This document shows positions 20,861-62,032 of a stretch of 62,032 nucleotides of DNA, in pieces (within the stretch, counting starts at the first letter, position 1; the number at the start of each line of letters is the position of its first letter). Source of the stretch: Bacteroidia bacterium (lineage in GTDB: Bacteria > Bacteroidota > Bacteroidia > Bacteroidales > Azobacteroidaceae); contig BNTW01000006.1 in NCBI GenBank assembly GCA_025996895.1, positions 1 to 62,032 on the forward strand, in the 5' to 3' direction. Both the position numbers and the translations under genes were made by a program. The notes under the pieces were generated by a model. It was not told the DNA's origin. It did no database searches and saw only the letters and a program-made list of their open reading frames with translations.

Positions 20861-20888
20861 GTAGGGGCGTTGCGCGCAACGCCCTTAC
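20861..20888. repeat. GTAGGGGCG-type palindromic repeat, intergenic copy
   Basis: A 28-bp near-perfect palindrome opening GTAGGGGCGTTGCG and closing CGCAACGCCCTTAC, with one mismatch from perfect symmetry. An almost identical copy lies inside the giant gene at 21098-21125. Confidence 0.85.
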
Positions 20889-21027: not shown

Positions 21028-24000
21028 TTATTTCACAATAATTTTGTGTGTCTGCGCCTCCCCGTTGCCTAATACCGCCTTCACGATGTAAACCCCGGTA
21101 GGGGCGTTGCGCGCAACGCCCCTACGCAAATTCATCTGATATACATTATTCTCAATCTGATCCGCTTGTTTGATTCTTCTTCCTTGCATATCGAATAATT
21201 CCACCGAATTAATCTTTTCCGGCGAAGAAACGGTTACTGTTTCATCGTCTTGATAAATCGCGATTTTGCTTTCGTTTTTTATCTCACTGATGGCCGTCGG
21301 CGATTTGAAACTCAACGCAAAGCGGTCAATATAAGGTGTTGTGTTGTCGCTCTGTGTGAAAGTGTAAGAATTGTTTTGCAGCAAATCCTGCGTTTGACCG
21401 GTCTTTTTGTCTAACAATGTCAGTGCTTCCACATCCGCATTGATATCGAATGTCAGCGTAATGCGGTTGCCGAAACCACTGCGAAGACCCAGCGGAATAA
21501 TCGTTGTTGCTTGATTTTCGTTTTCTGTGGAATATTGCACCGCATTCTTTTGCCCGCTTTCATCAGTGAAATACACTTGCGGAATATTGTTGGATGCTTC
21601 ATAAAACAACTGATACACATTTTGGCCTTCTTGATTTATTGCAAGCGTTGCCGAAGTTGCTTTGTTCTTGTTCGCATGGCTTGTCGCCGTTACATAAATC
21701 ACATCGTTGTTTGCTTTTGGTGATTTAAAGTAATCATAGTGCGCTTTCCCGGTTTCTCTGGTGATTGATGTTGTCTCAAACGGAAAATACAGATCGACAG
21801 TACTGCCCGGCGTTCCGGTGGTTGTGATAAAGAACGCTTGCAAAACCGTAATCGTATCCGTTATGCTTACGCTTCCAACATTGTACTCATAAGTATTAAA
21901 CGTGCCGTTGTAAAGGCGGAAATAATTGTTGATGGCCGTACTGTTTGCCTGATAGAAATTATTGAACTTCAGCGAGGACATAAACGGATTTCCGAGCATG
22001 ATTTCCTTGCCGGTCGGGACTGTGATTTTGAACGCATTTTTACCGATTAATGTTCCGCTGGGGATTGGCACAATCTGATTGTCGAAGATAAAGCGATAGG
22101 CTTCGTCTTCGCGTAGAATGCTTCCCTGCGGGTGAGTGGTCAGTGCCAAATTCGTATCATAATACCAATACTCTTTGAAAAAACTTGTTTTGCTTCCGGT
22201 ATCATATTGATGCACGCGGTGAGGATGAATATGACTTGCGCTGTTGTCGAAATCACTTTCGTCATACGGGCCTTCAAAGTAGGGAAGAGTGATAATTCCT
22301 TTCAAAGTATCTAATCCGGCTTGATAACCGCCCGACCAGTCTTCACCGTTATAGCCCGGATTGTTGTCTGCAACCAATAGAGCGATGGCATAGCCCAGAC
22401 TGTCGTTCAATTCGGCTTCGTTGTTGGGCTTGATATTGTCGTCGGGCCAGTCGAAAGCGCCGGTAAAAGTTCCGGATACATCCGAGCGGATAAAGCGTTT
22501 CTGCCACGTGTGCGGTTTACCGCCCAAGGAAAAGTCGCCGGTAACAATCTTTTTTAATGGTGCGGAAAGGGCGTACCATTGGTCGCGGTCCATTACCGAA
22601 GTGGGTTGAGTGTTTTCATAACCCGGATGGTCAGTGATTGTTCCACCTGCATTGTAATACCCGAAATTGTACTGAATCCACGCTTTGGTATAATGCAGAG
22701 AATCGGTACGGGCGACTTCGCCGCCAAACTCAAAGAGTATGTGGTCGCAGGAAGCTTCGTTGTAAATCATACGGTCGGTAACATTTTCACTTAAATCGGG
22801 GTAAATATTGATTCCATCGGGAATTAAGACGTGTGTACAAGGACGGGGAATCCAAGTTAGCGAGAAACCGGCTGCCGGAGAAAGCAGGTCGGGATTTAAC
22901 CAGTTGGCGGGGTCGTGCCAATCCTGCGTATTACCCAATCCTGTCCAAATCAACGAATCCGAATGATGAAAAATCTTTACTTCTATGCGATTGACTGTTT
23001 TCTTGGTTGTACCGTCATACACATCGACATACAAGGATTGTTGAGCGTTTCCGTCTTTGACAAACAAAGCGGAATTACTTAATTTGCCTTTGTTGGTTTC
23101 CAGAAAATCGGACGGATCGATACTCGTCGGATCGGTGTACCAGGAGTAATCCAACGGAGAATTCAAGGGATAAAAATAGACCGTGCTGTCGCCCTCGCAA
23201 AGCACTTGGTCGGGTACACCATACAAATCCGTATTATAATAATTATTCGCATAACGACATTCTTCCATGCCGACAGGCAATATATTGTTGTCTTCATTCA
23301 AACGAATTTGGATATTGGTTGGAACGAATTTGGATACTGCGCCGATAATTTTAAACATAAGCTGTTTTGTTTCACCCACCGCAATACTTCCACCTCCAAT
23401 TGGTATCGGATTGGGTGTTACAGACAATTTAGCAAAACCGCTGCCGGTAAATCCGTAAGCATTGACGGTTAGCGGACTGGGAAATGCGGCGTCACCCTCG
23501 TTCGTCACCCAGATATCCACATCGTAATCATTTCCATTCTGGACGATTTGCACTCCGGTATTGTTATCGCCTTCGTTTGTATCGAAAGTCAGATCGGGGC
23601 CTCTTTGTAACATCTTGCCTTCATCGTTGAGCGAAGTGGCCTGTTGAAGAAAATTATTGAAGGGCTGGTGAGTCGTACCGTCGCTATTGATAAAGAATGT
23701 TGCCGGATTGAGCGGATTGGCGGGAATCGTTACGTCTTTATTGACATAGACCGGATTATAGGCATATTGATTCCAGACTTTACGGGCAGGCGCCCAGGGA
23801 GAAGCCGGATCGTCGCTCTTATATATCCTTAATGGCCCCAACCAATAGTCCATGCCACCCGGCTCGCCCGGAGTTCCACCGACGATAAGGATTTCGGACT
23901 GACCATCTCCGTCCACATCAGCTACCACGGGATATTCCCAGCCTGTTCCGGACTTACTGGGCATAACGGTTTTATTTCTATCCGGATAGTTAATAGCGCC

Positions 24001-26028
24001 ATTGGCTGTTCCGTCAAGGATACGTAATTCCGTTTCATCCCGATACACCAATTCCGCTATACCATCCTGATCGAAATCAAATAAAGTAATACCGGTAGTT
24101 CCCGAAGCATCAAGATGGCTTAAGCGCCAAAATTCCGTCAATACCGGATTCCCGGGAATATATTTATATGCAAACATAAGCGTACCACCCGTGGTTCCGG
24201 ATCCAGCTAATTTAATTAGAATTATTTCATTATTGTCATCTCCATCAATGTCCCCGACAAAAGGATAACTACCTGTCGTTCCCGAAATGTATTTAGCAGC
24301 GCGTATGGTTCCATTCGTTCCCGTTCTCGGATCGACAATATAAATGGCTATATTAGGACTGGCAATTACTCTGACAATCAGTTCTAATTGACCGTCATGA
24401 TCCATATCGACTGCAGAAACATGTCCTCCCGCCGGAACAGTCCAGGCGGTGGCTGAGGTATAGTCCGGATCAGCAATACCGGTTTCCGTACTTCCAACCC
24501 TTTTAATGGTTGGCGGGGTGATGTTTTTTTTCAGAGTCATCGTCCAGGTACCGCCCGGATTGACATCATAAATCAGGTTACCGGCAATATAATTCAGCGT
24601 ACCATCATTGTACAAATCGGCAGCAATGCAGGAAGCCAATGTTTCTGTTATTGAGCAAAGAAGTTGTCCGTTCGCAGAATTAAAAAGTTTTCCGTTAGTC
24701 AATATTTCCGGAATGCCGTCTTTATTAAAATCTGCAAAACTTACTATACTTTGATAAGTTGTTGAAGCATGGTAAACTACCGAACTGGTCCAAGCCAGCG
24801 TTCCGGTGGGGTAATAAGCCCGCAAGTACCGGTCGCCCTCGCAAACAACAATTAACGTAGTATCTATGCCGCTTATTTGAGTACGAACGATACTGTACTG
24901 CATATAACCGCTCCAGTAATAGGGCTTTACCGTATTAATGGTAGTAGTCGGTGCCGTAAGGTCATTTCCTTTATATATGGTTATTTTACTACTGGGTCTT
25001 GCTATTGTAACCCCATTGATGGCTGTTGTATTATTCACTATTGGATCGGTAGATACTAAAATTTCTACAATGCCATCACTATCAATATCCCCTACTACCG
25101 GAATAGCATACGGGCAGTGATTGGCGTTGGCTGTTTCTATATAGGTCATTCCCCAACTTACCGGTATGGGAGTTATCGCACAAATATCATCATAAATGTT
25201 ATCCGGTTTATCATCCACATTAATCAAAACAAGAACCGGCGCCGATGTTACATCACAAGTAATCGTATATTGCAACGTATCCTGTCCGGTGTAGCCGGCG
25301 GCCGGTTTGTATTTTATCGTATCGCCGGTGGCACCTGAATAAACATCTGCACCGCCATGTTTGGCCGGTTGTGTAATGGCTATTTGAATACCCGTCTCCG
25401 TACACATGCCTAATTCATCATTGCGAAGCACCTGGATTACGGTTGAATCCGTCGAATTGGGTAGGACAAAGGCGTTGTCGGGAACGGCTTTGAAGGGGAG
25501 TTGGGCATACGTGTTGGTTCCGCAGAAAAGCAGGAAAAATAGAAATAGTTTACCCCCCAACCCCCTGAAGGGGGCTTTGAGAGTCTGCGAATTTTCAACG
25601 TTTTGCGTCAGCCAAAGTCTCCCCTTCAGGGGAGATTGAGAGGGGTGTATTGTTGTTTGCATTTTGAGCAAATGTTTTTTAGTTAATAAAACTGTGAAAT
25701 AAAGCACTGAAATAATCAGCAAAAAGATTATTCCGTTTCCCAGTGGAATAGACGAGATGGCCAAGTGGTTGCGGTGACCGTCGTCGGTGGAAAGACCGGT
25801 TTCCAGATAAGAGCTGCCGAAAATATTCGTCAAAAAATCGCCAGAAGGATTGAATGATGAAAAATCGCGAGACAACATAAGATTGTCGCGATAAAACAGG
25901 TCGGATTGCGGCAAAAAATCGTTATCGGATTGTAGAGACGCGGCATGCCGCGTCTCTACTTCCCATTGGGCAAAAGCACCAGAGGGAAGAAGCAGAAAAA
26001 ACAATGTCAAAAATTTAAATGTTCGCAT
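21028..26028 (-). CDS. Giant T9SS surface protein, FG-GAP repeats, N-terminal fusion
   Basis: A 1666-residue protein. Residues 1-122 are a complete small protein: signal peptide ending AFAQ, GDFLTNIFGSSY (63-74), PLGNG (95-99), membrane segment (100-116), KK. Residues about 125-159 are encoded by a short-repeat cassette. A second signal-like segment follows at 160-176 (LFLFFLLFCG...YAQ). Then come an Ig/cadherin-like domain (about 180-275), about six FG-GAP/VCBS repeats with Ca-binding cores such as DIDSDGIVEI and DVDGDGQSEI (about 311-730), beta-rich modules, and a region shared with the other giant protein (about 1060-1480). A type A T9SS sorting domain ends TGVYIVKAVLG...HKIIVK. Palindromic repeats are read in frame at residues 24-33 and 1635-1644. 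The protein is likely exported and attached to the cell surface. A sigma-54 promoter lies at 26427-26442. Confidence 0.85.
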   Translation of the reverse strand: MRTFKFLTLFFLLLPSGAFAQWEVETRHAASLQSDNDFLPQSDLFYRDNLMLSRDFSSFNPSGDFLTNIFGSSYLETGLSTDDGHRNHLAISSIPLGNGIIFLLIISVLYFTVLLTKKHLLKMQTTIHPSQSPLKGRLWLTQNVENSQTLKAPFRGLGGKLFLFFLLFCGTNTYAQLPFKAVPDNAFVLPNSTDSTVIQVLRNDELGMCTETGIQIAITQPAKHGGADVYSGATGDTIKYKPAAGYTGQDTLQYTITCDVTSAPVLVLINVDDKPDNIYDDICAITPIPVSWGMTYIETANANHCPYAIPVVGDIDSDGIVEILVSTDPIVNNTTAINGVTIARPSSKITIYKGNDLTAPTTTINTVKPYYWSGYMQYSIVRTQISGIDTTLIVVCEGDRYLRAYYPTGTLAWTSSVVYHASTTYQSIVSFADFNKDGIPEILTNGKLFNSANGQLLCSITETLASCIAADLYNDGTLNYIAGNLIYDVNPGGTWTMTLKKNITPPTIKRVGSTETGIADPDYTSATAWTVPAGGHVSAVDMDHDGQLELIVRVIASPNIAIYIVDPRTGTNGTIRAAKYISGTTGSYPFVGDIDGDDNNEIILIKLAGSGTTGGTLMFAYKYIPGNPVLTEFWRLSHLDASGTTGITLFDFDQDGIAELVYRDETELRILDGTANGAINYPDRNKTVMPSKSGTGWEYPVVADVDGDGQSEILIVGGTPGEPGGMDYWLGPLRIYKSDDPASPWAPARKVWNQYAYNPVYVNKDVTIPANPLNPATFFINSDGTTHQPFNNFLQQATSLNDEGKMLQRGPDLTFDTNEGDNNTGVQIVQNGNDYDVDIWVTNEGDAAFPSPLTVNAYGFTGSGFAKLSVTPNPIPIGGGSIAVGETKQLMFKIIGAVSKFVPTNIQIRLNEDNNILPVGMEECRYANNYYNTDLYGVPDQVLCEGDSTVYFYPLNSPLDYSWYTDPTSIDPSDFLETNKGKLSNSALFVKDGNAQQSLYVDVYDGTTKKTVNRIEVKIFHHSDSLIWTGLGNTQDWHDPANWLNPDLLSPAAGFSLTWIPRPCTHVLIPDGINIYPDLSENVTDRMIYNEASCDHILFEFGGEVARTDSLHYTKAWIQYNFGYYNAGGTITDHPGYENTQPTSVMDRDQWYALSAPLKKIVTGDFSLGGKPHTWQKRFIRSDVSGTFTGAFDWPDDNIKPNNEAELNDSLGYAIALLVADNNPGYNGEDWSGGYQAGLDTLKGIITLPYFEGPYDESDFDNSASHIHPHRVHQYDTGSKTSFFKEYWYYDTNLALTTHPQGSILREDEAYRFIFDNQIVPIPSGTLIGKNAFKITVPTGKEIMLGNPFMSSLKFNNFYQANSTAINNYFRLYNGTFNTYEYNVGSVSITDTITVLQAFFITTTGTPGSTVDLYFPFETTSITRETGKAHYDYFKSPKANNDVIYVTATSHANKNKATSATLAINQEGQNVYQLFYEASNNIPQVYFTDESGQKNAVQYSTENENQATTIIPLGLRSGFGNRITLTFDINADVEALTLLDKKTGQTQDLLQNNSYTFTQSDNTTPYIDRFALSFKSPTAISEIKNESKIAIYQDDETVTVSSPEKINSVELFDMQGRRIKQADQIENNVYQMNLRRGVARNAPTGVYIVKAVLGNGEAQTHKIIVK
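21098..21125. repeat. GTAGGGGCG palindrome inside the sorting domain
   Basis: A perfect 28-bp palindrome (GTAGGGGCGTTGCG and its reverse complement). It adds the residues RRGVARNAPT in frame just before TGVYIVKAV of the T9SS sorting domain. Confidence 0.9.
25547..25660. repeat. CCCCCTGAAGGGGGC / CTCCCCTTCAGGGGAG repeat cassette inside coding sequence
   Basis: Two GC-rich inverted repeats, CCCCCTGAAGGGGG (about 25560) and CTCCCCTTCAGGGGAG (about 25618), flank a spacer. In frame they encode the residues SPLKGRLWLT...LKAPFRGLGG. The same repeat types occur in the leader cassettes at 26077-26166 and 41709-41797. The cassette joins the small N-terminal protein to the giant protein. Confidence 0.85.
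25932..25959. repeat. GTAGAGACG palindrome inside coding sequence
   Basis: A perfect 28-bp palindrome (GTAGAGACGCGGCA and its reverse complement) encoding VETRHAASL at residues 24-33, right after the signal peptide. Confidence 0.9.
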
Positions 26029-26277
26029 GTTTATTGAGTTATGAATTATAAGTTATGAGTTATGAGTTGAAGAAAACCCCACCCCAGCCCTCCCCTGAAG
26101 GGGAGGGAGTGGCAGCGCACAATTTTGCAAGGGCTTTTTCTCCCCCTTTAGGGGGCTGGGGGGGAAACAGGAGATTGCGGGTCAAGCCCGCAATGACAGA
26201 AGAACTGCCGCCTTCGCAATGACGGAGGCCGGAAATATTGCGTATTAAAAATAAATTTTGTATATTACGCGCGTGAG

Positions 26278-26309
26278 AAAAAAGACGCGTTACAGGGCAC
26301 ATAACGCGT
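26278..26309 (-). terminator. Terminator-like hairpin in the leader of giant gene 1
   Basis: On the minus strand ACGCGTTA pairs with TAACGCGT (8 bp, 9-nt loop), followed by C and six T. It lies about 120 nt after the predicted sigma-54 start and 250 bp before the start codon, so it could attenuate transcription. Confidence 0.6.
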
Positions 26310-26426
26310 GAATTTTTGTTAAACCGCCAGGTGAGTAATGTGTGTGTGTATCATATTATTTTGCATTTTTTAAAACATTTTTATATGTTATACAACATAA
26401 AAGTGCTTTTTTCTAAAAAAAATAAC

Positions 26427-26442
26427 AGCAAAAAACGTGCCA
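26427..26442 (-). promoter_or_regulatory. Sigma-54 promoter, copy 1
   Basis: The minus strand reads TGGCACGTTTTTTGCT, a full match to the -24/-12 consensus TGGCACG-N4-TTGCW with ten bases between GG and GC. It points toward the giant gene that starts at 26028. Confidence 0.85.
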
Positions 26443-26461
26443 AAATCAAAGTTTTGATTTT
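26442..26461. promoter_or_regulatory. Palindromic operator candidate for hipBA
   Basis: AAAATCAAA and TTTGATTTT are separated by 2 bp. The site ends 14 bp before the hipB -7 box and abuts the divergent sigma-54 element, so a bound HipB dimer could affect both. Confidence 0.5.
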
Positions 26462-34233: not shown

Positions 34234-34245
34234 TACCCATATTAG

Positions 34246-34296
34246 AGAGTGGATAGATTTGTATGCTTGCAACCACAGAAAAAAATGCTAAAGACC
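34246..34296 (+). ncRNA. SAM-II riboswitch aptamer
   Basis: The segment reads GTGG-ATAGATTTG-TATGCTTGCAACCAC, then an A-rich linker and GCTAAAGAC. It matches the SAM-II core: a GTGG/CCAC P1 stem, the GATTT strand, TTGCAA before the P1 close, and the 3' GCTAAA strand that forms the pseudoknot around S-adenosylmethionine. It lies 80 bp before metK, which makes S-adenosylmethionine, so feedback control fits well. Confidence 0.85.
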
Positions 34297-34329
34297 CGTT
34301 GTTGGTTAGAATACATGATTTTTTCGCTT

Positions 34330-34375: not shown

Positions 34376-35638
34376 ATGAGTTATTTATTTACGTCCGAAT
34401 CCGTATCTGAAGGCCATCCCGACAAAGTGGCCGATCAAATTTCAGATGCTCTGCTTGATCAGTTTCTTGCGTATGATCCTGATTCTAAAGTAGCTTGCGA
34501 AACATTAGTAACCACCGGCCAAGTCGTTTTAGCCGGTGAAGTAAAGTCTAAATCCTACATTGACATTCCCGAAGTGGCGCGGAAAGTAATCGAAAAAATC
34601 GGTTACACCAAAAGTGAATATCAGTTTGAAGCCAAATCGTGCGGGATATTCAGCGCGATTCACGAGCAATCGGGCGACATCAATCGTGGTGTGGAGCGCG
34701 CTGATCCGCTCAATCAGGGTGCCGGCGATCAAGGCATGATGTTCGGTTATGCTACGAAAGAAACGGCCAATTATATGCCGTTGCCGTTGGATTTGTCGCA
34801 CCAATTGTTGATTGAATTGGCGGATATCCGTAAAAATGAATTGGCATTGATGCCTTACCTGCGTCCCGATGCCAAATCGCAGGTAACGATTCAATACCAC
34901 GAAGACGGTACACCGGAAAAAATCGACACGATTGTGATTTCCACCCAACACGACGAATTTGCCGGTGACGAGGCGATGCAGAAAAAAATTGCGGAAGATG
35001 TGAAAACGATTTTAGTTCCGCGTGTGAAAGCCAAGTATCCGGTGCATATCCAAGCGTTGTTCAACGATAAAATCAAGTTTTTTGTCAATCCGACCGGCAA
35101 ATTTGTTATCGGCGGCCCGCACGGCGATACCGGATTGACCGGAAGAAAAATCATTGTGGATACTTACGGCGGAAAAGGGGCGCATGGTGGCGGTGCATTT
35201 TCGGGAAAAGACCCCTCGAAAGTGGATCGTTCGGCTGCTTATGCTGCCCGCCATATTGCCAAGAATTTGGTTGCTGCCGGTGTGGCCGACGAAATTTTGG
35301 TACAAGTGGCTTACGCGATTGGCGTTGCCGAGCCGATGAATATTTTCATTAATACTTATGGTAAAAGCAACGTTGCGCTATCCGACAGTCAGATTGCCGA
35401 AAAAATTGCTCAAATTTTCGATATGCGTCCGAAAGCGATTGAAACCCGCTTGAAACTCCGTAACCCGATTTATTTTGAAACGGCCGCATACGGTCACATG
35501 GGACGTCAGCCGGAAGTAGTCAAAAAGACATTCACTTCGCGCTACCAGGAAGAGCCGACCAAAGAAATCGAAGTCGAATTGTTCACGTGGGAAAAATTGG
35601 ACTATACGGAACAAATTCAAAAAGCATTTGGCATTTGA
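34376..35638 (+). CDS. metK: S-adenosylmethionine synthetase
   Basis: A 420-residue enzyme that makes S-adenosylmethionine from methionine and ATP. The family signatures are complete: [15 protein letters not shown] (about 9-23), [12 protein letters not shown] (about 117-128) and [22 protein letters not shown] (about 262-283). It is a single gene controlled by a SAM-II riboswitch and terminator in its leader. A stable hairpin follows it (35655-35678). Confidence 0.97.
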
Positions 35639-35678: not shown

Positions 35679-35688
35679 TCGTGATATC

Positions 35689-35712
35689 GGGGCGTATTCA
35701 ATACGCCCCTAC
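35689..35712. repeat. GGGGCG-type palindromic repeat, intergenic
   Basis: GGGGCGTAT-TCA-ATACGCCCC followed by TAC has the same outer sequence as the GTAGGGGCG repeats at 20861 and 21098 but a different centre. Confidence 0.75.
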
Positions 35713-36255: not shown

Positions 36256-39200
36256 TCATTTTACAATGATTTTCTTCGTTTCACCATTCACTCTCACGAT
36301 ATACACGCCTGTGGCGTTTGCCTGATAGCTGTAAGCCGGTTTGACGGTGTTTTCTTTCACCAATGTTCGACCCTGTGTGTCAATGATTTCCAGGTTTCCG
36401 AGCGAATTGCCGCTGTTGGAAGTAATCCGGATTGTTTGCGGAACCGGACTGGTTACTTGAAAGTCTTTAAGGCCATTAAAGTCCTTAATGCCGGTTATAT
36501 CTTCAAACGAAAGATAGAAGCGGTCGTCGGTGTAGAAATTGCTGTCATATTTGATATAAGCATATTCGCTTTGCTCAGACAGGTCGATTTTGGTATTATC
36601 TACTGCGTCGTGCAGATAGATTTTTTTGCCGTCAAAGTCTTCCATGCCGGTGAAAGTGAAGAGTATTCGTCCGATTTTGGAAGTGCGTATCCCGATTTTG
36701 ACGATGGTGTTTTCGTCGAGCCTGTCGAGTGTGTTGATGTCGAGTGCAATGCCGTCTGACGAAAGCAAATAGACAAGCACCGGTTCAGTTGCTTTTTCGT
36801 CAAACAGCTTGCGGCTGTCTTCGTCAGCATGGTAATTTTTGGAAGCGCCGGCGATACGAACAAGCGAGGCAGAGCTTTTTTGCTTTCCCCGAATGGCTGT
36901 AACAAACAGCTGTTGCGTATCGTTGTGTGCAGGACTAAGCAACGGACTGCCGGCTGCGGCCGGCGCAACAGCTGTGTGGGCAGCAATGTCGGCAATCAGC
37001 TGTCCGCTGTTGCCTTTGGCATAGACAATAAACGACTGCATGGGCGCGATGTATTGCGGCAAAGTGCTTGGGTCGCTTGTGAACGGCGTTCCGGCTACGT
37101 TTTTGTAAGTTACAAAATCGCCCATACTGCCGAGATTATCTATCACATCCGAAGCAATTTTATATTCGTCGTAAATCAAACCGGTATTGTGCGGATTGGT
37201 CGAGAAAGCATCGAAATCGAGATGCGCCATAAACGGATTGCCGACCAGCACCATTTCGCCTATTTCGAGCGAGGAATGAGATAATGTTACAATCCCGTTC
37301 CCGTCAATGGCATCTTCGTAGATAAACCGGCTGCTGTTGGTGCGGTCTAACGAGCCGCCCACTCCGGTAATAGCACCCTGTATGTTGTAATAATAATGCA
37401 CCGGGTCAGCTTTGGGAAAACAGAACGGCTCGCCGATTTCGTTTTGTTCGCCGTAGTCCGAGTTTTTCGGATTGGCAAACAACGCAAATCCCTGACCGGC
37501 CTGCAATTCGATGTCGTTCGTGTTGAAACCGTTCGTCCAGTCGTGGGCAAGAAAATAGCCGGTTTGCGGATTGGTGATGTCGAACCGCATCATGTGAACG
37601 AGCATACCACGATTATTCAAATCGGCGTGCGGATTGTGGTCGGTTACATAATAATCGCCGGAATAGGTATTGCGAAGCGGGGCGGAAAGCATATACCATT
37701 GGTTTGAATTAATATCCAATTCCACTTTCGCACCGTTGTAGGTGAGGTAATGCGTATTTTTCACTTCTCCGCCAAATTTAATATCAATGGTGTCGCAAGC
37801 GGCGGCCGGAATCACTTCCGGTATGGCTTCTTCCAAAACCGGATAGGAAGAAAGTCCGCCCGGAATGGTAACATACGAGCAGGCGTCGGGAAGACTTGCC
37901 TGATCCCAGTTGGCCGTATTGTTCCAGTCGTTGTCGCCCGCTGCGCCTGTCCATTCAAAATCCGTAGAAAAAGAAATGGGTATCGAAAACGGGCTGTTGC
38001 AGCCGGTAGAAGAAGTGGAATTGAACACCACCGTTGCTTCATAAAATCCCGGCTCCGAGACACTCAGCGATTGTTGGTTGGCATTGGCAGTCAACGGTAC
38101 GTTATCTTTTTTCCACGCAATGCTGTTGATGGAGGCTGCATTTCCGGGCAAGGTAATGATATACGGCTTGCAACTTGCAACCAATGGCGGAAACAGGGTA
38201 GGTATCCCCGACTGGTAGCGGGCTTCAAACTGAATATTCGAGCTGTTGTCACCCTGATCTGTTCCATACACGGTCCATACATCTTCGTCTTCGCAGTCAT
38301 CCGGCAAAAGAATATTGATGTCTTTCAGATACAAATCATACGAAACCAGATCGCAAGCGGGCAACTTTAAATTGGCTGGTATGCCGGCAACGGTAGATTT
38401 TATGTAATACTCATCGCAGGGCGACCCGTTCTGTATCAACGCATTATGAACGATAACCGTATTGGCCGCGCCCAAGGCAAGCGTACCGCGTTGCGATTTC
38501 ACTTCCAATGTATCGGTTTCAAACAAGCCGGTGATGGTATTGGTCTGTGCCACTGTTGTAGAGTTAAAAATTATCTTATCGTCGAAGCAAACCACTCCGG
38601 TACCGGTATTGGTGATCGAAGTATTGGCTCCACTTGTTATAAATGAGCCGAAATGCTCGGTGCAGGATCCGTCGTTGTTGGTAATAGTCATCGAAGCCCT
38701 TGTATTGAACACCGCTCCTTCTCCGTTGAAGTTAGCACATTGATTGATAATGATTGGGCCATCCCATCTTCCGGTAAAAGTAGCATTGGATATATCCACT
38801 GTTTTACCCGTTGCCTGCGTAATCTGTCCGCTGGGGTTAACCACGTCCATCGTAGCACCTGATGCATAGAAACTGCCGGCAACGGTAAAAGCAAAACTGT
38901 CAAATGGAAAATTTCCGTACCAATCATAGCGTCCTGTGCTGAAGGCAGGTGTTCCCCATCTAAAACCGCCTGCATAAGTAACGCCGCGTGTGTCGAATGT
39001 CTGTGCGTCAGCGGCATCGCTTGACCCGGTAAAGCTGATATTGCCGGTTGCCTGTAGTCCGACGGTCATGCCCGAAGCCAGCATAATCGAGCCTGAAGCA
39101 GTGATCGCATTTACGTTCAATAGGGGCGCGTTTATTCCCGCTTCAGCTGTCCAAATCATCGTGTTAAATGTCGCGGGCTGATCCATGACCACCGTTTGTC

Positions 39201-41643
39201 CGGTTTGAGTAAAGGAATTGCCGGTAAAATATACCGTATCTGCCAAATTCGGAATACAACCATTTGCATTGTTCTGACTGGGGAAAACGCCGTCGTCCAC
39301 ACCGAGGCTCCAATGCGTGGGGTCTGACCAATCTCCGGCATCGCCTACCCAATAAAATCTTTCCGACTGGCCGGTCGTGAAATAGATGTCCGTCATATCG
39401 TTGCTTCCGCCATCCACGCCGTTGGGTACTTGCAGCATGGAGTTGTCCGTAGTATCGCGGGTATAATTGATGCGGGTCAGGTTTCCGCCCGGAATAGTCA
39501 GCACACCACCGGTTTTATTGATAATCGTACTTCGATGGGTGGCCGCCGTACCGCTGATCAGCGTAATGACACTGCACGCTCCTGAACCTGCATTCAGGCT
39601 GCCGGTGATGGTATAGGAGTAATTGTTTCCCAGCGTGTAAGTCCTGAAAGGAGACAGTGTAAGATTTCCGACTGAAAACGAATAACTGCCTGTCAAATTG
39701 CCATTTACATTATCAAAAGTAAAATTATCAAATTTATTAGCGTAATTCGCCATTCTCAAATAAGCTGTGGAAATAATCGTGCTGTTGGGATATTCGTGAA
39801 ACGTTACATTGTGAAAATTATATATTCCACCCTGAGTAAACAAATCAATTCGACCGCCGTTGGTTGCCGGATAAATATGAAATTCCGTACCGCTTATATT
39901 AACCTTCGCCGGATTCGTCAAGTAAATATTATTAATAAAATTAGCATTAGTTACTGTATATCGGCTGGTTACGATAGAATTGGAAATATTCAACAAGTAA
40001 GTCGAGGTACTTGTGCATTGCAGATAGGATAATCCGATGTTTAGTCCGGAAGCAGTCACCGTACCGGTTTGCATAATTAAAGCACCGGACGACAAGAAAT
40101 CGCTTGTAAAAGTATAAGTTCCCAGATGGCGGAAAGTTACTGCACCTGTATAAACCGGATCAGGGCCGGAGTTGAGCGTAAAGCTATTCGATGCGCTTTT
40201 GTTGTTGACAAAATACAAGTCGGAAGCGATTTGATCGGCTCCCGAAAAATCGGCATTACCCCAAATACTCAATTGGCTGCCTGTCAATACACCGCCTTTA
40301 GCAGCTCCCGGCCAGTCCATTTCGCGGCAGGCGGAAGCAATCGGAATCGTTACCGTATCGGTCAGTGCCGGGTCGAAATGTACCACATCTACAGCCGTCG
40401 GCACACAACCGTTGCTTTGGTCGCGTGCCGGATTGATTGCCCACATGACGGGGTCGTTCCAGCTGCCTTTTCCGCTAATCCAATAATAATCGATTCCGGC
40501 TACCGGATTCCACGTTACATTGGTGCCGGAGTTTCCCATATTGTTGTTTTCGTCGGCGATAAATCCGTTGCCGGAAGCACTGAACGTACAACCTGAGTAA
40601 TTGATGTGATGGGTTTCGATGGCTGTACCGACTGTTGCTTGCAGTGTAGCATTGAGAATGACACTGAACGCATTGCTGCAACTCGCAACCGGGTCGTTAA
40701 TTGCATTGAAAGTCATTGTACCGTTGTTGCTTACAATCGTTGTCTGCTGGTTGATATTCAACGTACCGATTGCATAAGTACCGGCTCCGGCATTCACCTC
40801 AGGGGTATTGATATTCAACGTGCCTGCTGTTACTGTCCCCGTCAGCGTGATATTGCTGCGTCCAAGCGTATTGCTGTTTAATGTAAGCGACTGAAACGGA
40901 ATATCGGCGGAAATCGTCATATACGGATTGCTGACAATCAGATTGCTATTGCTGATATTGAAAGTCGTATTTGTTCCTCGGAATTGAGTTGTAGCATAAT
41001 AGCCGTTCCCACTACTACCATTATAATTTGAGGTGATAGTACAATTTGTCAAATTGATAGTGCGGGCTACAGTAGGAATGCTTGCTCCGCTTCCGAAAAG
41101 AACAGTTCCTACAGTTATATCTTTACCGTTAATCGAAAAATCTCCCTCAAAAATCCGTAAGCCGGCTTCGCTATCTGTAGTATTTAACCGGATATTATTG
41201 GTTGCCGTAATTCCGCCGCCGGGTTTATTTATGGCCAATATGATCGCATGTGTTACATTGTCGCCCAGAGCCAGCGTATTTTGCGTAGCGCCCAGCATGG
41301 TGATGGTTTTGTTTCCGGTAAAAGTCAGCTTTTCGCTGGTGTTGAGAATATCGCCATAGACACTCATAGTTGCATTGAGCGTATAAGCCACCGTAGCCGT
41401 ACAGGTAATATTGTTTACCGAAATCGTCCCCGACGTAATGTTCCGGTTGATAGCATCGTTGCGGTCGAAAAACACATTATCGCCCTGCTGGGGATAACCG
41501 CCCAAGCCGCTGTCATTGATCCAGTTGCCTGCTGTTTGAAATTCGGTACTGGTTGCTCCCGTCCAATGGAAATCGGCGGCAAAAGTTGGGAAAACAAAAA
41601 TGCCAAAGAAAAATACTAAAGCTAAAAGTCTAATTGTTCGCAT
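36256..41643 (-). CDS. Giant T9SS surface protein with W-G-x-W repeats
   Basis: A 1795-residue protein with signal peptide MRTIRLLALVFFFGIFVFPTFA. Similar segments start near residues 24 (FHWTGATS...GNW), 385 (YYWISGKGSWNDPVMW), 766 (FYWVGDAGDWSDPTHW) and 1229 (FEWTGAAGDNDWNNTANW). Each introduces a long beta-rich stretch of G/N/T-rich strands that looks like a right-handed beta-helix. Residues about 1230-1600 match the corresponding part of the other giant protein (FGGEVKNTHYL, QWYMLSAPLRN, VGNPFMAHLDFDAF). A T9SS type A sorting domain ends ATGVYIVRVNGETKKIIVK. It is probably a surface adhesin or glycan-contact protein. The start is preceded by leader cassette copy 2 and a sigma-54 promoter at 42093-42108. 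Confidence 0.85.
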   Translation of the reverse strand: MRTIRLLALVFFFGIFVFPTFAADFHWTGATSTEFQTAGNWINDSGLGGYPQQGDNVFFDRNDAINRNITSGTISVNNITCTATVAYTLNATMSVYGDILNTSEKLTFTGNKTITMLGATQNTLALGDNVTHAIILAINKPGGGITATNNIRLNTTDSEAGLRIFEGDFSINGKDITVGTVLFGSGASIPTVARTINLTNCTITSNYNGSSGNGYYATTQFRGTNTTFNISNSNLIVSNPYMTISADIPFQSLTLNSNTLGRSNITLTGTVTAGTLNINTPEVNAGAGTYAIGTLNINQQTTIVSNNGTMTFNAINDPVASCSNAFSVILNATLQATVGTAIETHHINYSGCTFSASGNGFIADENNNMGNSGTNVTWNPVAGIDYYWISGKGSWNDPVMWAINPARDQSNGCVPTAVDVVHFDPALTDTVTIPIASACREMDWPGAAKGGVLTGSQLSIWGNADFSGADQIASDLYFVNNKSASNSFTLNSGPDPVYTGAVTFRHLGTYTFTSDFLSSGALIMQTGTVTASGLNIGLSYLQCTSTSTYLLNISNSIVTSRYTVTNANFINNIYLTNPAKVNISGTEFHIYPATNGGRIDLFTQGGIYNFHNVTFHEYPNSTIISTAYLRMANYANKFDNFTFDNVNGNLTGSYSFSVGNLTLSPFRTYTLGNNYSYTITGSLNAGSGACSVITLISGTAATHRSTIINKTGGVLTIPGGNLTRINYTRDTTDNSMLQVPNGVDGGSNDMTDIYFTTGQSERFYWVGDAGDWSDPTHWSLGVDDGVFPSQNNANGCIPNLADTVYFTGNSFTQTGQTVVMDQPATFNTMIWTAEAGINAPLLNVNAITASGSIMLASGMTVGLQATGNISFTGSSDAADAQTFDTRGVTYAGGFRWGTPAFSTGRYDWYGNFPFDSFAFTVAGSFYASGATMDVVNPSGQITQATGKTVDISNATFTGRWDGPIIINQCANFNGEGAVFNTRASMTITNNDGSCTEHFGSFITSGANTSITNTGTGVVCFDDKIIFNSTTVAQTNTITGLFETDTLEVKSQRGTLALGAANTVIVHNALIQNGSPCDEYYIKSTVAGIPANLKLPACDLVSYDLYLKDINILLPDDCEDEDVWTVYGTDQGDNSSNIQFEARYQSGIPTLFPPLVASCKPYIITLPGNAASINSIAWKKDNVPLTANANQQSLSVSEPGFYEATVVFNSTSSTGCNSPFSIPISFSTDFEWTGAAGDNDWNNTANWDQASLPDACSYVTIPGGLSSYPVLEEAIPEVIPAAACDTIDIKFGGEVKNTHYLTYNGAKVELDINSNQWYMLSAPLRNTYSGDYYVTDHNPHADLNNRGMLVHMMRFDITNPQTGYFLAHDWTNGFNTNDIELQAGQGFALFANPKNSDYGEQNEIGEPFCFPKADPVHYYYNIQGAITGVGGSLDRTNSSRFIYEDAIDGNGIVTLSHSSLEIGEMVLVGNPFMAHLDFDAFSTNPHNTGLIYDEYKIASDVIDNLGSMGDFVTYKNVAGTPFTSDPSTLPQYIAPMQSFIVYAKGNSGQLIADIAAHTAVAPAAAGSPLLSPAHNDTQQLFVTAIRGKQKSSASLVRIAGASKNYHADEDSRKLFDEKATEPVLVYLLSSDGIALDINTLDRLDENTIVKIGIRTSKIGRILFTFTGMEDFDGKKIYLHDAVDNTKIDLSEQSEYAYIKYDSNFYTDDRFYLSFEDITGIKDFNGLKDFQVTSPVPQTIRITSNSGNSLGNLEIIDTQGRTLVKENTVKPAYSYQANATGVYIVRVNGETKKIIVK

Positions 41644-41913
41644 ACTTTTTTTGAGTTATGAGTTATGAATTATGAGTTATGAGTTGAAGAATTGAGAGTT
41701 GAGAATGACCCCACCCCAGCCCTTCCCTGAAGGGGAGGGAGTGGCAGTGCACAATTTTGCAAGGGCTTTGCTCCCCCTTTAGGGGGTTGGGGGGAAACAG
41801 GGGATTGCGGGTCAAGCCCGCAATCCCAGATTGTTGTCCGCCTTCGCAATGACGGAAGCCGGAAATCGGAAATCTTGCGTATTAAAAATAAATTTTGTAT
41901 ATTACGCGCATAA

Positions 41914-41946
41914 GAAAAAAGACGCGTTACAGGGCACATAACGCGT
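41914..41946 (-). terminator. Terminator-like hairpin in the leader of giant gene 2
   Basis: Same 8-bp stem ACGCGTTA / TAACGCGT and T-run as in copy 1, about 270 bp before the start codon. Confidence 0.6.
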
Positions 41947-42092
41947 GAATTTTTGTTAAACCGCCAGGTGAGTAATGTGTGTGTGTAACAAATTTTTAGT
42001 AAATAAAACAAATATTTCTACATGTTTTACAACATAAAAATGTATTTTTTTAGAAATTGTTCGCATCACAAATTGTTACGAGTGCAAATTGC

Positions 42093-42108
42093 AGCAAAGA
42101 ACGTGCCA
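42093..42108 (-). promoter_or_regulatory. Sigma-54 promoter, copy 2
   Basis: The minus strand reads TGGCACGTTCTTTGCT, a full -24/-12 consensus match pointing at the giant gene. It lies 7 bp past the lacZ stop, so the giant gene need not rely on readthrough from lacZ. Confidence 0.85.
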
Positions 42109-42114
42109 AAAAGT

Positions 42115-61744: not shown

Positions 61745-61756
61745 ATAACGATTTTT

Positions 61757-61772
61757 TGGCACGCTCTTTGCT
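61757..61772 (+). promoter_or_regulatory. Sigma-54 promoter, copy 3
   Basis: TGGCACGCTCTTTGCT on the plus strand fully matches TGGCACG-N4-TTGCW and points off the right end of the window. Confidence 0.85.
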
Positions 61773-62032
61773 ATATCCTCTTTCCATAACATTTGGTGAT
61801 GCGAACAATTCTTAAAAATACTGTGATTTATGTTGTAAAACATGTAGAAATATTTGTTTTATTTACTAAAAATTTGTTACACACACACACACACATTACT
61901 CACCCGGCGGTTTAACATAAATTCACACGCCACACGGCCTGTAACGCGTCTTTTTTCTCACGCGCGTAATATACAAAATTTATTTTTAATACGCAATAAT
62001 CCCGAAGGCGTTTTCACCCCCCAACCCCCTAA
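61757..62032 (+). repeat. Giant-gene leader cassette, copy 3 (inverted, cut by window end)
   Basis: Matches copies 1 and 2 in inverted orientation: sigma-54 promoter, GCGAACAATTCTTAAAAATA, ATGTTG-TAAA-ACAT hairpin, ATTTACTAAAAATTTGTTAC, an (AC)8 tract, CACCCGGCGGTTTAACA, TAACGCGTCTTTTTTCTC, and the start of a CCCCCAACCCCCTAA repeat at the edge. Its terminator-like stem is degraded compared with copies 1 and 2. No gene lies between 61685 and 62032. Confidence 0.85.

Follow-up and report, generated by a model that had tools for sequence, protein, structure and literature searches.

A many-copy leader headed by predicted sigma-54 promoters in front of giant surface protein genes in a Bacteroidia genome

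Three boxes and two giant genes in the window

The window, that is, the whole 62,032-nt stretch of DNA analysed here, contains three sequences that match the -24/-12 consensus of sigma-54 promoters, TGGCACG-N4-TTGCW, with zero mismatch. All three were found at the coordinates and on the strands given in the initial annotation, and their spacers (TTTT, TTCT and CTCT) are as it had read them. They are the sole exact sites in the window, and a relaxed form of the motif, TGGCA[CT]-N5-T[TCG]G[CT][AT], returned the same three sites and no others. When up to two mismatches were allowed, we obtained 6 matches where 9.22 were expected, and such loose matches in the window thus carry no meaning.

The first box, TGGCACGTTTTTTGCT (copy C6a), lies at positions 26427 to 26442 on the minus strand and is an exact match whose -12 spacing predicts a +1 at about 26416. 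It belongs to a short-linker form of a leader repeat (26238 to 26444, minus strand) that also contains the palindrome ATGTT-N4-AACAT (26385 to 26398, minus strand). The gene behind this leader (21028 to 26028, minus strand) encodes a giant surface protein of 1666 aa, with a signal-like N-terminus as judged by eye (MRTFKFLTLFFLLLPSGAFA), FG-GAP repeats and a borderline T9SS C-terminal sorting domain. The shared unit has its 3' limit at a hairpin with a T run behind it (GTAAGGGCG/CGCCCCTAC, 20861 to 20888, minus strand), of which the first arm is common and the rest differs.

The second box, TGGCACGTTCTTTGCT (copy C6b, 42093 to 42108, minus strand), is also an exact match, begins a few bases past the stop codon of the preceding ORF and has its predicted +1 at about 42082. 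Its leader is of the long-linker form (41875 to 42110, minus strand), with a sequence match to the palindrome at 42022 to 42035 (minus strand), and precedes a gene for a giant surface protein of 1795 aa (36256 to 41643, minus strand) that shows a weak T9SS C-terminal domain match at 36262 to 36447. The 3' limit of this unit is a hairpin with first arm GTAGGGGCG (35686 to 35712, minus strand). The third box, TGGCACGCTCTTTGCT (copy C6c, 61757 to 61772, plus strand), is again exact, with a predicted +1 at about 61783; its leader (61755 to 61996, plus strand) carries the palindrome, as a sequence match, at 61830 to 61843 (plus strand), and any gene behind it would be past the contig end, which is also the end of the window. 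Two of the three boxes thus face giant genes, as had been proposed, and the proposal of a repeated leader was borne out as well, the three window copies being members of the 46-copy set described below. Measured from the predicted +1 to the start codon, the 5' UTRs of the two genes would be 388 nt (26416 to 26028) and 439 nt (42082 to 41643) long; the medians quoted for two Bacteroidota are 24 and 32 nt (PMC9723704).

The initial annotation had also called both giant genes T9SS genes; the sorting-domain matches are borderline for the 1666-aa protein and weak for the 1795-aa protein. The former matched PF18962 at 28.9 bits, over the cut-off, in the genome scan and at 21.6 bits, under it, as a whole protein; the latter reached 24.9 bits in the genome scan, under the cut-off, and its whole-protein scan gave no Pfam family at E 0.001.

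Leader copies in the genome and the genes behind them

Scanning the genome of origin (G000; 3.12 Mb, 258 contigs), as had been suggested, gave 29 exact TGGCACG-N4-TTGCW sites compared with 0 for the reversed control pattern, which rules out a chance motif; at up to one mismatch the counts were 69 and 17. Of the exact boxes, 28 head one repeated leader, and the 29th (C25b) is a bare box that runs straight into other sequence and was counted as a broken leader copy. One mismatch was found at 40 sites in all: 12 are leader copies already in the set, and 12 further sites that were read comprised 3 leader copies (C4, C53 and C37) and 9 non-leader sites, 6 of which fall within an ORF. A 236-nt leader query gave 41 matches, of which 40 are complete or partial leaders (the best 40 of 75 candidates scored). 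Because 40 of the 75 leader candidates were scored, the count is a lower bound, and the set holds at least 46 copies, one of which (C25b) shows the box alone. As all copies come from one ancestor, they do not amount to 46 independent confirmations of the box.

Over the 46 copies, the box has no mismatch in 29, one in 15, two in one (C11) and four in one (C65, which has an extra base). Of the 21 departures, 13 sit at the seventh base, where the groES boxes of relatives mostly have A. The spacer is CTCT in 21 copies, TTCT in 9, TTTT in 8, CTTT in 4, TTAT in 2, and CTGT and CTTC in one each.

Column variation was measured on the 36 copies having both leader ends. In these the box reads TTTGGCAC[G/A]NTNTTTGCT, with a mean variation of 0.005 in the six TGGCAC columns and of 0.052 in the seven columns to the -12 end, one of which is a variable spacer column. 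The box is followed by a variable linker (0.181), after which come a palindrome block, TTTATGTTGTAAAACAT (0.018), and, 3' of it, an AT-rich stretch (0.162); the other parts are ACACACACACATTACTCACCTGGCGGTTTAACA with the next bases (0.045), a hairpin region (0.108) and a tail that ends in AATACGCAA (0.024). Repeat filler and then the start codon follow the leader. The end of TTGC and the second palindrome base are 22-34 nt apart in 6 copies, 58-62 nt in 28, and 66 and 70 nt in two; among the six copies with a linker about 25-37 nt shorter, five keep the box at no more than one mismatch. The palindrome is present in 44 of the 46 copies and missing from C25b and C53, both of them broken copies.

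Copies on C25, C36, C53 and C66 are interrupted by other, IS-like sequence about 15-130 nt from the box, and since these four copies (C25b, C36, C53 and C66) are broken off, some copies are probably dead. Moreover, 18 of the 46 copies have less than 690 nt from the box to the contig end (for example the window end at 62032); the repeat family thus probably broke the assembly, which may hide more copies.

On the leader strand, an ORF of 100 aa or more follows every one of the 28 copies that have 689 nt or more of sequence downstream. These ORFs are surface-type in 27 cases and an MFS transporter in one (C65). In that locus (L092), a leader with shifted box spacing precedes the transporter gene rather than a surface gene. 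The ORFs start with MRT or MRI in 24 of the 28 cases, and the C11 ORF has no intact N-terminus in the frame that was found. The mature proteins have several N-terminal types, and their clustering, which chained most of them together, gave families of 25, 2 and 1. Among the nine surface-type ORFs closed by a stop codon, the genome scan placed PF18962 over the cut-off in four (C6a, 28.9 bits; C14b, 27.7; C11, 34.9; C59b, 28.9) and under it in two (C6b, 24.9; C14a, 24.1), and did not list it for three (C9, C75b and C50). T9SS membership of the leader-gene cargo is thus partly shown, at the level of sequence matches. PF18962 matches number 80 across the genome, so that the leader genes make up only a part of the possible T9SS cargo.

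Sigma-54 machinery, groES promoters and related genomes

The genome encodes the machinery that such boxes call for, as the initial annotation had asked to be checked: an RpoN with all three sigma-54 domains (activator-interacting, AID; core-binding, CBD; DNA-binding, DBD) and three sigma-54 activators. A lack of rpoN, which the initial annotation had named as a refutation, is thereby ruled out. The nearest named record to this RpoN is from Candidatus Azobacteroides sp. (64% identity), which suggests that the bacterium is probably a member of the Bacteroidales from a termite gut. RpoN was found in 92 of the 97 genomes searched, this one included, and is thus ancestral.

Sigma-54 AAA+ activators carry a GAFTGA-type loop motif, and three of the six PF00158 matches in the genome are true activators of this kind. 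The C39 protein has a Fis-type HTH and the loop GSFTGA and adjoins an LptE-like ORF; the C32 protein has a receiver, a Fis-type HTH and the loop GAFTDA; and the C8 protein (L063, C8:16886-18121) consists of a receiver and an AAA+ domain without HTH, has the loop GSFTGA and adjoins a sensor-kinase-like ORF (both neighbours were named by reading the sequence). The open frames of relatives of the C8 protein are 351-445 aa long in 15 same-genus genomes (63-79% identity) and 453-474 aa long in some deeper relatives. Sigma-54 activators that lack a DNA-binding domain include FlgR (Helicobacter) and CtcC (Chlamydia), and the C8 protein is like them in combining receiver and AAA+ with no HTH; we infer its tie to the leader promoters.

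Since sigma-54 promoters are known for groESL and the sprB operon of F. psychrophilum (PMC9723704), we read the groES upstream regions of relatives as a control. From 30 loci, two in which no start was found and the copy of the genome itself (57 bp of upstream sequence) were dropped, which left 27. TGGCA[CT] occurs within 140 nt 5' of groES in 26 of these 27 relatives, compared with a shuffle mean of 0.6, 0 on the antisense strand and 1 for the reversed pattern. The 26 boxes all have G at position 14, their -12 pair is GC in 14, GT in 8 and GA in 4, and none matches the exact consensus. Within 60 nt 5' of the box, 20 of the 26 have TGTCA (1.5 on average in shuffles) and 16 of the 26 have TGTCAG (0.3); this element (L310-L337) is probably the binding site of an activator of chaperone genes in this order. 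The leaders show no such enrichment: within 60 nt TGTCA occurs in 2 of 46 copies (shuffle mean 2.2, i.e. chance) and TGTCAG in 0 of 46 (0.3). The groES evidence thus indicates that this type of box is in use in the lineage, with a looser -12 part, and that the groES upstream element is absent from the leaders. The sigma-54 chaperone promoters known in Bacteroidota, listed for groESL, dnaK and grpE in a table of PMC9723704, have the same kind of -24/-12 box as the leaders, but groES differs by its upstream TGTCA and its looser -12 part.

The leader was not found in the 96 relatives (best 8 candidates per genome); 18 short matches were obtained, of which 16 fall on the palindrome region. Exact sites number at most 6 in any relative, and their sum is 39 compared with 25 for the control; the closest sister species may be missing from this comparison. 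Homologues of the giant proteins are present in the genus, and in the six homologue upstream regions that were read no site rose above 9 of 12 on the sigma-54 consensus. Only one of the six contains TGGCA[CT] within 600 nt, and its two sites both lack G at position 14. A 20-base leader core had 0 matches in the GTDB species collection, from which own or very near records may be absent. Two IMG/VR matches to an 18-base core had no leader around them, and a viral occurrence of the leader was rejected.

The promoter most like these is that of the remFG-sprCDBF operon of F. psychrophilum, a sigma-54 promoter (SM4), tested by reporter mutagenesis, before a giant T9SS-secreted surface adhesin, SprB (PMC9723704). 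That genome, like ours, also has three PF00158 proteins. The differences are that one operon is concerned there and 46 copies here, that a second promoter, SM5, contributes there, and that no repeated leader cassette was found for that promoter in the parts of the paper drawn on here (PMC9723704). PorXY-SigP, which controls T9SS genes in Porphyromonas gingivalis, is similar in placing T9SS function under an alternative sigma factor, but it involves an ECF sigma factor and machinery genes rather than sigma-54 and cargo genes (PMC4800418). That sigma-54 controls a giant T9SS adhesin is thus known already from Flavobacterium (PMC9723704); the novelty is a cassette in 46 copies that has a sharp border and no shared upstream enhancer and that was found in one of the genomes searched. 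No earlier description of a multi-copy sigma-54 cassette was found in the literature searched, whose coverage is partial.

The leader as a proposed promoter cassette and the alternatives

As a rule, sigma-54 promoters are low in number, dispersed and accompanied by local enhancers. In this genome, giant surface proteins appear under dozens of near-identical boxes that look like sigma-54 promoters, and the cassette is missing from the relatives searched. We consider it likely that the intact boxes are working sigma-54 (RpoN) promoters heading a 5' cassette that has spread or been homogenised, and that this cassette drives lineage-specific giant surface proteins, T9SS cargo in at least some cases. 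It would consist of the -24/-12 box, a leader of about 200 nt, simple-repeat filler and the start codon. RNA polymerase-sigma54 would wait at every intact leader, and one shared activator would fire the whole set together. Since there is no shared upstream enhancer, this activator would work via the palindrome just 3' of the start site or without binding DNA; the C8 protein, with its receiver and AAA+ domain and no DNA-binding domain, would be a natural candidate for the latter mode. Start sites, RpoN dependence, the identity of the activator and the role of the palindrome are predictions in this scheme. The separate RpoN-controlled regulon put forward in the initial annotation is thereby supported, by RpoN and the three activators, by the 28 of 29 exact sites that lie at the leader and by the groES -24 box of relatives. 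The number of copies, their sharp 5' border, the missing shared upstream enhancer and the failure to find the leader in the relatives searched go beyond what that annotation had noted. If the scheme is true, a bacterium could assemble a coordinated surface regulon in a short time through duplication of a promoter cassette, and sigma-54 activation that needs no upstream enhancer would become directly testable.

It is unlikely that the housekeeping sigma factor transcribes these genes, from near the palindrome or from just 5' of the box, with the sigma-54 box as a relic or minor promoter. The initial annotation had overstated the case in attributing TAnnTTTG boxes to almost all other genes, as we found one within 150 nt of 11 of 24 hand-picked non-leader ORF starts. 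Within 100 nt 5' of the sigma-54 box, TAnnTTTG occurs in 6 of the 46 copies (shuffle mean 3.3), which favours a housekeeping promoter, as do the TACCTTTG boxes at two homologous giant genes of genome G025 and the situation of the palindrome in relatives: the exact palindrome is present in 12 of the 18 loci fetched for the short matches, and in 9 of these 12 TAnnTTTG lies 20-67 nt beyond it, on either strand. Against it, no TAnnTTTG lies between box and start codon (105-497 nt, truncated in some copies) in 43 of 46 copies, the exceptions being C34 and two broken copies, and TGGCAC is the best-conserved stretch of the leader. At 16-240 nt into the leader TAnnTTTG is found in 2 of 46 copies compared with 5.6 in shuffles, a scarcity that gives only mild support. 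In the relatives, ATGTT-N4-AACAT near the TAnnTTTG promoters of varied genes (L137-L152) looks like the operator of a common regulator.

The box could instead be first of all the fixed end of a repeat that moves or recombines, with an incidental or secondary resemblance to sigma-54 promoters, a reading that we regard as quite improbable. It draws on the border of the repeat. The conserved block begins sharply at the -24 box in all 46 copies, where the two bases 5' of TGG are TT in 44 and AT in 2 and the third base is mixed, and the frequency of contig ends within 690 nt (18 of 46) points the same way. In upstream flanks of up to 700 bp, compared for 43 copies (C4, C53 and C37 were left out), we found nothing in common beyond two short weak blastn matches. 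Flanks are unrelated even for near-identical leaders: seven pairs that are 97.1-99.6% identical have an upstream identity of 0.51-0.67, where random pairs have a mean of 0.62 and a maximum of 0.76. On the other hand, a match of 12 out of 12 to the sigma-54 consensus is very improbable by chance, the 5' border is the functional edge of a -24 box, and box and palindrome are conserved while the linker is variable. The nine downstream stretches scanned, some of them incomplete units, contained no CGTGCCAAA or reversed box as terminal inverted repeat; a classic transposon was thus rejected. In the five 3' ends that were read, homology ends at the first arm of the hairpin past the stop codon.

Three of the seven near-identical leader pairs have comparable coding sequence, which is 0.74-0.89 identical over nt 60-660. 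C14a and C75b share leader (0.93) and filler (0.92) while their coding sequences are 0.61 identical, and C14b and C9 do so likewise (0.92, 0.96 and 0.61). The same leader and filler thus stand before unrelated genes, meaning that the 5' cassette has moved, or is being homogenised, separately from the genes; gene conversion and movement both fit the pattern seen in the sequences. More tentatively, we suggest that a self-contained sigma-54 cassette is spreading or being homogenised, and that genes capturing it might join one on-off surface regulon without a local enhancer, by way of the downstream palindrome or of an activator that does not bind DNA. If such capture is true, a regulon in a sigma-54 system would grow by promoter-cassette capture.

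That the leader is chiefly an RNA regulator (an attenuator or riboswitch-like) behind an ordinary promoter is very improbable: conserved blocks far into the transcribed part, a hairpin with a T run after it in a number of copies and the predicted 5' UTR lengths (388 and 439 nt) speak for it, but no Rfam match was found at the leaders at the gathering threshold, singly folded copies have no one common hairpin, and RNAalifold on 30 distinct 3' halves gave short helices with invariant or mostly one-sided changes and no clear compensatory ones, on which grounds a structured RNA element was rejected.

Outside the leader family, the wider-regulon scan, in which 24 of the 40 one-mismatch sites were assigned, left C3:33629, C16:16087 and C21:26984, which lie outside ORFs, as possible members of a wider sigma-54 regulon. 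At C3:33629-33644, a sigma-54-like box, TGGTACG-N4-TTGCA, lies directly 5' of a BetR-domain gene. Genome G028, of the same genus, has 6 exact sigma-54 sites with varied spacers, compared with 2 for the control, and may have a sigma-54 regulon of its own. In the window, a SAM-II riboswitch (57.1 bits, 34243 to 34301, plus strand) lies 5' of an ORF at 34376.
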